DNA from: Actinotalea alkalitolerans
GTDB taxonomy: Bacteria > Actinomycetota > Actinomycetes > Actinomycetales > Cellulomonadaceae
Assembly: GCF_023369855.1 (NCBI RefSeq)
Contig: NZ_JAMBPP010000015.1
Span: 1-64,000, forward strand
DNA length: 64,000 nt
Direction of reading: 5' to 3'
Part shown: positions 16,460 to 18,296 of the stretch, piece by piece
Position numbering within the stretch: the first letter of the stretch is position 1
Layout of the letters: each line of letters opens with the position of its first letter
Made by a program: the position numbers and the translations under genes
Notes under the pieces: model-generated
Told to the model about the DNA's origin: nothing
Database searches by the model: none
What the model saw: only the letters and a program-made list of their open reading frames with translations

Positions 16460-16534
16460 ATGAGCAAGCGCGGTCGCAAGCGCCGTGCCCGCAAGGGCAG
16501 CGCAGCCAACCACGGCAAGCGCCCCAACGCCTGA
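16460..16534 (+). CDS. Ribosomal protein bL37
   Basis: A 24-residue, highly basic protein, MSKRGRKRRARKG... ending NHGKRPNA. It closely resembles the 24-residue mycobacterial bL37, a large-subunit protein added to the ribosome in actinobacteria. GAGGAG sits 5 bases before the ATG, a near-ideal ribosome binding site. A stem-loop CTGACGG/CCGTCAG (16420-16438) lies in the leader. Its coding region is too short for most gene callers. A strong G/C palindrome follows and probably terminates it. Confidence 0.85.
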   Translation: MSKRGRKRRARKGSAANHGKRPNA

Positions 16535-16550
16535 GGTCGTAGGACGCACG

Positions 16551-16596
16551 GCAGGAGGGGGGGGGGGCCCCCCCGGGGGCCCCCCCCCCCTCCTGC
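16551..16596. terminator. 17-bp G/C-homopolymer palindrome, terminator or sequencing artefact
   Basis: GCAGGA followed by 11 G (16551-16567) is matched by 11 C followed by TCCTGC (16580-16596); the loop is 7 C and 5 G. It lies between convergent bL37 and rsrA, where a bidirectional terminator is expected. Such exact homopolymers are error-prone, so the run lengths may be wrong. Confidence 0.6.
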
Positions 16597-16600
16597 TGTG

Positions 16601-16897
16601 TCAGCTCCCGGGGTACTCGCCGCGCAGGATCACGAGCTGCTCGCGGATACGCAGGTGCAGGGCCATCGGCGCCGCCTCGTGGCACGAGCGGCGAACCAGC
16701 TTCTTGAGGTGGTCCTCGATGTCGTACTCGGCCAGGCAGGGCTCGCAGTCGGCCAGGTGCTCACGGATACGGTCGCCGTCGACCTCGGAGCACTCCGAGT
16801 CGAGGAACTCGAAGAGCCGGTCCAGCGCCTCGCCGCAGTCGGCCGCGTGGGCCCTGGACGGTGCGCTCTCAGGAGCGCTGCCGGTCGCGTCGTTCAC
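16601..16897 (-). CDS. Mycothiol-system anti-sigma factor RsrA
   Basis: 98 residues with the zinc-binding anti-sigma layout: Cys21, then His47, Cys51 and Cys54 (HLADCEPC). In Streptomyces RsrA and mycobacterial RshA this cluster holds zinc, binds the sigma factor, and releases it when cysteines are oxidised to disulfide. The GTG start overlaps the sigR stop by 4 bases, so the pair is co-translated, which keeps sigma and anti-sigma in balance. Confidence 0.9.
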
Positions 16898-17517
16898 GGT
16901 GTACCCCTCTCGTCCGCTGCGGCAGGGACCAGGCCACGCTCCCTCGCGTAGTCGGTCAGCAGCTCACGCAGCTGTCGACGACCACGGTGCAGCCGCGACA
17001 TCACCGTGCCGATCGGCGTGCCCATGATCTCGGCGATCTCCTTGTAGGCGAACCCCTCGACGTCGGCGAGGTAGACCGCGATCCGGAACTCCTCACCGAT
17101 CGAGGCCAGCGCGTCCTTGACGTCGGAGTCGGGGAGGCCGTCCAGGGCCTCGGCCTCGGCCGAGCGCAGGCCGGCCGAGGTGTGGGAGGCCGCCCGGGCG
17201 ATCTGCCAGTCCTCGATGTCCTCAGCCGCCGACTGCAACGGCTCACGCTGCTTCTTGCGGTAGGTGTTGATGAACGTGTTCGTCAGGATGCGGTACAGCC
17301 ACGCCTTGAGATTGGTCCCCGGGCGGTACTGGTGGAACGCGGCGAAGGCCTTGGCGACCGTCTCCTGGACCAGGTCCTCGGCATCGGCGGGGTTGCGCGT
17401 CATGCGCAGGGCGGCGGAGTAGAGCTGGTCGACGTAGACCAGTGCCTCTGTCTCGAACCGGGCAGCGCGCTCGGCAGTGCTCTCTGCCTCGGGCGCACGG
17501 TGGGTGTCCTCAGTCAT
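16894..17517 (-). CDS. ECF sigma factor SigR (SigH-type), thiol-oxidative stress
   Basis: 207 residues from ATG 17517. Region 2 includes [20 protein letters not shown] and the DNA-melting stretch [12 protein letters not shown]; region 4 includes the helix-turn-helix [19 protein letters not shown]. It directs transcription of thioredoxin, mycothiol and protein-repair genes when RsrA is oxidised. A -10 TAGGCT ends 8 bases before this ATG, so a leaderless mRNA would make exactly this form. The frame stays open upstream to ATG 17643 and beyond; a SigR-type promoter placed just before 17643 could produce a form with 42 extra residues, like sigma-R prime in Streptomyces. Confidence 0.92.
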
Positions 17518-17525
17518 CGCCCACG

Positions 17526-17531
17526 AGCCTA
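17526..17531 (-). promoter_or_regulatory. sigR P1: housekeeping -10 (TAGGCT), leaderless
   Basis: TAGGCT on the minus strand ends 8 bases before the ATG at 17517 and no ribosome binding site intervenes. It would give the short SigR. Confidence 0.5.
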
Positions 17532-17652
17532 GCCTCCGGGACGGGCCGCGGCTGCCTGGCCGCGAGACCGGCCGTCGCCGCAGCCCACGGATGCCTCGGG
17601 TCGCCGGGCCCCTGCCCTGGGCGTTCTCGACCAGAAGAGTCATACCCGGGCC

Positions 17653-17679
17653 AACGCCCACGCGGGCACCAACCATTCC
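17653..17679 (-). promoter_or_regulatory. sigR P2: SigR-type promoter (GGAAT-N19-GTT)
   Basis: On the minus strand GGGAAT occupies 17680-17675 (GGAAT 17679-17675) and GTT 17655-17653, 19 bases apart. SigR/SigH promoters carry GGAAT about 18-20 bases from GTT. The predicted start of transcription is only a few bases before the in-frame ATG at 17643. This would be autoregulation. Confidence 0.5.
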
Positions 17680-17756
17680 CGTGCCGGAACGGCGGTGCAC
17701 GTGGGCCAGTCCCGGAGCGTGCTCGACGAGAGGGTGCCCGCAGGCCTACGACGCAC

Positions 17757-17768: not shown

Positions 17769-18296
17769 ATGTCCAGATTCCTCACGCTTCTCCGCGAGCA
17801 GGTCGGCCACGAGTTCGACGCCCACCAGCAGTACATCGCGATCGCTGTCTGGTTCGACGGCCAGGACCTCCCCCAGCTGGCGAGGCACTACTACCGGCAG
17901 GCCGTCGAGGAACGCAACCACGCGATGATGATCGTCCAGTACATGCTCGACCGGGACCTCTCGATCGAGATCCCCGGTGGCCGGCCCGTGCGCAACGACT
18001 TCGTCACCGTGACCGACCCCATCTCCCTGGCCCTGGCCCAGGAACGAGTGGTCACCGAGCAGATCGAGGCGCTGTTCGCAGCCGCTCGTACCGAGGGTGA
18101 CGCCCTCGGTGAGCAGTTCCTGCTGTGGTTCCTCAAGGAGCAGGTCGAGGAGGTCGCCTCCGCCACGACGCTGCTGACGGTTGCTGAACGAGCCGGCACC
18201 AACCTCTTCGACCTCGAGAACTACGTCGCCCGCGAGCAGATCGGCGACGGCGGGGAGTCGGCCGACGCACCCGCGGCCGCAGGAGGCGCCCTGTAG
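17769..18296 (+). CDS. Ferritin (bacterioferritin-like iron storage protein)
   Basis: 175 residues forming a four-helix ferritin-like bundle. Ferroxidase ligands are visible: Glu15 (in GHEFDAHQQY), Glu48 and His51 in the ExxH pair EERNH, and further Glu residues at the third and fourth helices (AQERVVTEQIE, LKEQVEEV). It would oxidise and store Fe2+ in the cytoplasm and limit Fenton damage. It stands next to sigR with a shared upstream gap but is transcribed in the opposite direction. Confidence 0.9.
   Translation: MSRFLTLLREQVGHEFDAHQQYIAIAVWFDGQDLPQLARHYYRQAVEERNHAMMIVQYMLDRDLSIEIPGGRPVRNDFVTVTDPISLALAQERVVTEQIEALFAAARTEGDALGEQFLLWFLKEQVEEVASATTLLTVAERAGTNLFDLENYVAREQIGDGGESADAPAAAGGAL

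Follow-up and report, generated by a model that had tools for sequence, protein, structure and literature searches.

Two predicted leaderless starts at sigR of Actinotalea alkalitolerans point to a probable promoter-determined SigR isoform switch

The window analyzed here, a stretch of 64 kb of Actinotalea alkalitolerans DNA, carries on its minus strand, between 17700 and 16600, the gene for the ECF sigma factor SigR adjoined by rsrA, whose start overlaps the sigR stop codon (GTGA) (Table 1). The sigR frame is open upstream to at least GTG 17700, and the in-frame ATG 17643 adds 42 codons to the short form, giving an uninterrupted frame of 249 aa, in agreement with the 42 extra residues given by the first-pass annotation of this DNA. 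The long product scores 353.5 bits against the NCBIfam model TIGR02947 (cut-off 251.55), and an HxxxCxxC motif was recognized by eye in the rsrA ORF. Downstream of rsrA, which converges on a tiny gene, a G-run and a C-run lying between the two gene ends (window 16545-16605) make up a hairpin with 21 pairs in its inner stem (-62 kcal/mol, z -6.4), perhaps a two-way terminator. The plus strand encodes at 16460-16534 a basic ORF of 24 aa, which we take to resemble the small actinobacterial ribosomal protein bL37. On the other side of sigR, a divergent ferritin-like gene (window 17769-18296, plus strand) starts 89 bp from the p2 box and has a weak NCBIfam match (28 bits, far below the cut-off).

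Table 1 Features of the sigR-rsrA locus, in window coordinates
Feature	Position	Strand	Product or basis
sigR, short form	16894..17517	-	207-aa ECF sigma factor of the SigR/SigH group; over the TIGR02947 cut-off
rsrA, zinc anti-sigma factor	16601..16897	-	TIGR03988 (antisig_RsrA), 81 bits, cut-off 62.5
ATG of the short form, predicted to be leaderless or almost leaderless when transcribed from p1	17515..17517	-	TANNNT spacing according to PMC3160421 (in excerpt)
p1, TAGGCT, a hexamer resembling a -10 element, 8 nt upstream of the short start	17526..17531	-	sequence and family comparison
N-terminal extension (42 codons) carried by the long isoform, predicted to be disordered	17518..17643	-	translation, comparison, AlphaFold2
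ATG of the long form, at the +1 predicted for p2 (leaderless), 9 nt beyond GTT	17641..17643	-	numbering derived from PMC10012870 (in excerpt)
p2, distal SigR-type promoter GGGAAT-N19-GTT, presumed autoregulatory	17653..17680	-	sequence and family conservation
p2 parts: GGGAAT; 19-nt spacer; GTT	17680-17675; 17674-17656; 17655-17653	-	

The distal element p2 conforms to the consensus GGAAT-N18/19-GTT of the published SigR/SigH promoter class (excerpts of PMC3489674 and PMC10012870). The strict pattern GGGAAT-N18/19-GTT occurs once in the window, both strands together, and KGGAAT-N18/19-GTT was found 15 times in the genome of 4.37 Mb versus 0 times for a reversed-pattern control. The excerpted text of PMC10012870 names bases -31 and -30 as the end of the -35 element; by our own derivation from this numbering GGAAT occupies -35 to -31, an 18-base spacer brings GTT to -12 to -10, and +1 follows nine bases later. 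In the window GTT ends 9 bases before ATG 17643, so that the A of this codon is the predicted first transcribed base and the long mRNA is predicted to be leaderless. The first-pass annotation had placed GGGAAT, GTT, both ATG codons and TAGGCT exactly to the base; what it missed is this geometry, in which ATG 17643 would itself be +1 rather than simply a start codon somewhere behind a promoter. We infer that p2 depends on SigR, that the true +1 positions are those predicted and that the messages are translated leaderlessly.

The proximal element p1 shows a comparable arrangement. Leaderless genes are marked by TANNNT about 12 bp before the start codon, counted from the first T, with an allowed distance of 8 to 14 bases between its A and +1 (excerpt of PMC3160421). 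The first T of TAGGCT in the window is 14 bases and its A 13 bases before ATG 17517. With 8 nt between TANNNT and ATG, near the long end of the usual spacing, one or two bases could precede the start codon in the p1 mRNA. The same hexamer is translated in the long frame as part of L-G-S, a conserved stretch in the second half of the N-terminal tail. A GGAGG 15 nt upstream of ATG 17517 is more distant than a usual Shine-Dalgarno (SD) sequence, yet is not to be dismissed altogether.

For comparison, 251 distinct sigR loci were gathered from profile searches of genomes, from hand-picked regions (80, chosen from among the matches listed) and from a scan of named genera; the searches gave matches in 55 of 59, 92 of 246, 271 of 297 and 191 of 197 genomes, and the locus set is a part of these. 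Offsets were counted after removal of loci scoring below 150 bits and of duplicates of an identical 500-base stretch. The nearest named relatives among the sigR loci are Actinotalea soli (89%) and Cellulomonas species (84-86%), and on this ground the family of the window (f1) is taken as Cellulomonadaceae; Actinotalea, Cellulomonas, Cellulosimicrobium, Oerskovia, Promicromonospora, Isoptericola and Timonella were assigned to it by hand. A SigR-type box was present within the range searched in 57 of the 59 distinct loci of this family, and in every one of the 57 an ATG or GTG in the sigR frame, with no stop behind it, follows GTT after 8-10 nt (9 in 47 loci, 8 in 5 and 10 in 5), at the distance taken here to mark a leaderless start. 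At offset 9 all 47 ATG or GTG codons are in frame, while other offsets hold on average any ATG or GTG in 3.8% and one in frame in 1.75% of loci; the one further raised offset is 0 (17/57), a GTG directly after GTT and hence upstream of the predicted +1. Just outside the range searched, L040 carries GGAAT-N18-GTT-N9-GTG, in frame, as a 58th locus, and L053 is the only one of the 59 in which no recognisable box was seen. Frameshifts or stop codons in the extensions of relatives were what the first-pass annotation regarded as evidence against its proposal; all 57 boxed loci and L040 are open, and no box-bearing locus had been excluded for a stop.

The short start is equally regular in the family: TANNNT stands 8 nt before an in-frame start of the short zone in all 57 loci (53 TAGGCT, 3 TAGTCT and 1 TACTCT), as well as in L040 and L053, a uniformity that is partly circular, as the short start was found through a TANNNT at this very distance; in-frame starts of the zone were also listed with their box distances, free of that choice. 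In ten loci a GTG or TTG of the same frame also follows the box at 5 nt. SD-like words between -16 and -5 were seen before 0 of 57 short starts and 4 of 57 long starts, compared with 21% of random gene-body positions; at the short start the absence is partly forced, because the TANNNT box fills much of the interval. The short start combines a -10 sequence at leaderless distance with a lack of SD words, and the long start has GTT 8-10 nt upstream.

Outside the family the leaderless long-start layout was called in 50 loci, a call that takes the best of offsets 8, 9 and 10 and that about 5% of loci pass by chance. It is present in 5 of 6 Nocardioides loci and in 5/5, 4/5 and 3/3 loci of the families coded f13, f3 and f14. 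It was missing from all 53 Streptomycetaceae, all 9 Micrococcaceae, the loci of f15 (7/7), f8 (6/6), f97 (5/5) and f6 (4/4), and 8 of 9 loci of f22. On a FastTree tree of 169 of the 251 loci, for which short loci were omitted and f1 and Streptomycetaceae limited to 22 and 8 members, the layout state needs 26 changes, at least 7 of them forced by starred branches, and leaderless and leadered layouts therefore interchange. The 119 loci of the leadered set were classified by a simple rule, and some are wrongly placed.

The extension itself ranges from 20 to 81 codons in the 57 loci (median 46); that of L040 is about 95 codons long, and tails down to 12 residues exist (L253). Its inner part contains 0 stops in 2010 codons, the other two frames having 29 and 10, and a Markov null expects 17.5 with a minimum of 6 in 1000 runs. 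The offset profile, the stop counts and this null rule out a chance origin of the layout. In six disjoint close pairs pN/pS is 0.73 for the tail and 0.02 for the core. The absence of stops together with this ratio indicates that the frame has been kept and the sequence hardly at all. AlphaFold2 gives residues 1-43 a pLDDT below 50 and no secondary structure, a weak indication that the tail may be flexible or disordered. The extension was also considered as a conserved domain, and this was rejected on the same pN/pS and pLDDT values. In 20 of the 57 loci the third residue of the long form is cysteine.

The best characterized system of this kind is sigR of S. coelicolor, where a proximal promoter sigRp1 is accompanied by a SigR-dependent distal promoter sigRp2 whose transcript gives an N-terminally extended isoform (excerpts of PMC5472188 and PMC4921905); the extension is put at 55 residues in PMC4921905 and at 58 in PMC5472188. 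In the same excerpts and that of PMC6282962 the long form is an unstable Clp substrate that helps to end the response, and in PMC5472188 translation of the short form begins at GTC behind AGGAGGTG, a strong ribosome-binding site (RBS). Shared with the present locus are the ECF sigma factor with RsrA, the proximal promoter, the SigR-type promoter upstream of it and the extended in-frame isoform. Autoregulation at the distal promoter is the known case in S. coelicolor, and p2 is presumed autoregulatory by analogy. The layouts differ. None of the 53 Streptomycetaceae loci has a start at the predicted p2 +1, where the long start lies here; in the eight of them that were viewed an in-frame ATG follows 41-79 nt beyond +1, behind an SD-like word. 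In Cellulomonadaceae, unlike S. coelicolor, both starts are placed for leaderless mRNAs, a TANNNT box precedes the short start, and the tail is variable in length and unrelated to the S. coelicolor extension. The GTC or GTT short start behind AGGAGGTG is a trait of Streptomyces which does not define the switch, and in its place the window has ATG and TAGGCT. What we take to define it, a SigR-type promoter upstream of a proximal promoter and an in-frame open extension at the distal start, is present in the window and conserved.

Other relatives show parts of this arrangement. SigH/RshA of mycobacteria and Corynebacterium glutamicum is an orthologous sigma/anti-sigma pair with the same promoter class; the mapped sigH starts of C. 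glutamicum precede the start codon by 22, 89 and 93 nt and have housekeeping-type boxes (excerpt of PMC3489674), and f22, taken as mycobacteria-like, has the leaderless long start in 1 of 9 loci. The TA-led leaderless genes of Actinobacteria share TANNNT about 12 bp before the start (excerpt of PMC3160421), whereas here one gene has two starts, both coinciding with the +1 predicted for their respective promoters, of which one is SigR-type. No description of a leaderless sigR layout was found among the literature titles and abstract openings searched, a scope outside which most subscription journals fall. The 2009 article of Kim et al., which underlies the S. coelicolor account, refers to actinomycetes in its title, and isoforms outside Streptomyces may in part already have been claimed there.

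Taken together, the locus probably represents a promoter-determined SigR isoform switch built from two leaderless mRNAs. In unstressed cells the housekeeping-type p1 (TAGGCT) would start an mRNA at or next to ATG 17517, giving the 207-aa SigR, which RsrA would hold. Thiol stress would free SigR to use p2 with its +1 at ATG 17643, and this mRNA, read from its first codon, would give a 249-aa SigR-prime with a disordered tail of 42 residues. As the internal ATG lacks a ribosome-binding site at a suitable distance, each mRNA should yield essentially one isoform, and the kind of SigR made would follow from the promoter alone. By analogy with S. coelicolor, the tail would probably make the induced form short-lived and so shut off the response. 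The elements, their exact spacing and the kept frame can be read directly from the DNA; that two SigR isoforms are made is very likely, and for a degradation role of the long form the balance tips only slightly in favour. The rsrA gene next to sigR and a thioredoxin gene behind another box of this type were counted for the switch. Of the sigma-R/sigma-R-prime switch proposed in the first-pass annotation, the two promoter-like elements, the two in-frame starts, the open frame and a SigR-type promoter for the longer product are borne out by sequence and comparison, in another family; that the layout differs from that of S. coelicolor was missed there.

The most serious alternative, less likely in our view than the switch, is that p2 serves only to amplify sigR expression and that the tail has no role, its frame being kept solely so that SigR is made. 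With both promoters leaderless and p2 upstream of p1, the induced protein would have to carry the intervening stretch. The nearly unconstrained length and sequence of the tail favour this explanation, as does the interchange of layouts on the tree, and an out-of-frame long start would give little SigR from the p2 mRNA when the short start has no well-placed SD. The near-neutral tail fits it and a degradation tag equally well. It is opposed by the open in-frame extensions also found in many leadered loci (among the loci listed) and by two regularities at the N-terminus, both picked after the sequences had been viewed and uneven between groups. Aliphatic residues make up 45-47% at positions 4-5 of leaderless tails compared with 10-25% at positions 9-26. 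The word [LVIMC][DE]RP near the N-terminus recurs, in varied codons, in 10 of 123 tails (mean of shuffles 0.28, maximum 3 in 2000); within the first 14 residues it is found in 7/57 Cellulomonadaceae loci, 0/32 of the other leaderless groups and 3/34 of the leadered ones. A simpler pair, [LVIM][LVIM], occurs in 29 of the 57 Cellulomonadaceae loci, above all of 2000 shuffles (maximum 26), but not above shuffles elsewhere (15/32 in other leaderless and 15/34 in leadered groups, maximum 19 in each). We regard this putative degron word as a lead, not a finding.

It is much less probable that not SigR but a different ECF sigma factor with the same promoter preference acts at the p2 box. In its favour, the genome has 18 matches to the SigH_actino model including SigR, the next best scoring 105 bits, below the cut-off, and related ECF factors can share GGAAC/T-GTT promoters (excerpt of PMC10012870). 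Against it, GGGAAT-N18/19-GTT is of the published SigR/SigH type, and autoregulation has its precedent in S. coelicolor. That only the short form is made, from a p2 transcript with a 126-nt leader read from ATG 17517, the upstream ATG being there by chance, agrees with the weak codon constraint in the tail but is hardly credible in view of the in-frame start found at the predicted +1 in all 57 loci, the lack of stops and the short start without a well-placed SD.

The preferred reading, an isoform switch of two leaderless mRNAs, would show how a bacterium could fix a protein isoform by the transcription start alone, and it carries the switch known from Streptomyces into a second family and partly into further families and orders. 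It also provides a natural comparison of leaderless and RBS-led loci, with tails from 12 to about 95 residues, for what, if anything, destabilises the long form, and raises the possibility that sigR starts are misplaced by gene callers in such genomes. More tentatively, and with a better chance of failing than of holding, it may be proposed that across much of the Actinomycetes the isoform is chosen without any RBS, by two leaderless mRNAs from two sigma factors, that the tail is a degradation tag of minimal size, tolerant of sequence change, in which only a short aliphatic stretch at the N-terminus has been kept, and that the RBS-led layout of Streptomyces is one of several interchanging states.

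SigR-type promoters were also considered as leaderless by rule in this genome, and this was rejected: most of the assignable boxes among the 15 strict ones are not leaderless, a tally that leaves out L269, L278 and L281, to which no downstream start was assigned. A convincing ATG at +9 after the box is seen at sigR and L272. L272, a Bcr/CflA-type efflux transporter over the cut-off with its ATG 9 nt after a GGGAAT-N18-GTT box, is by this spacing likely to be a second leaderless target. L276 (GTG at 10) and L273 (GTG at 8, ATG at 44) are ambiguous, and L270, L271, L275, L277, L279, L280, L282 and L283 have starts 41-69 nt on, chosen by hand, with nearer ones also present at L271, L277 and L282. 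Nine downstream ORFs were submitted to NCBIfam: that of L270 is a thioredoxin, those of L271 and L275 are LLM monooxygenases over the cut-off, weaker matches were obtained for L273 (aldo-keto reductase), L277 (LLM oxidoreductase) and L279 (MoeB/MoeZ-type, a product that we read as rhodanese-like), and L280 and L283 gave no match. No Clp gene was seen among these box-downstream ORFs. The ORF behind L282 looks flavoprotein-like by eye. The boxes of L270, L279 and L282 overlap or adjoin palindromic stretches like ATACCCCC(T/A)GGGGTAT, seen only in part at L279, which to us recall CsoR/CstR operators.
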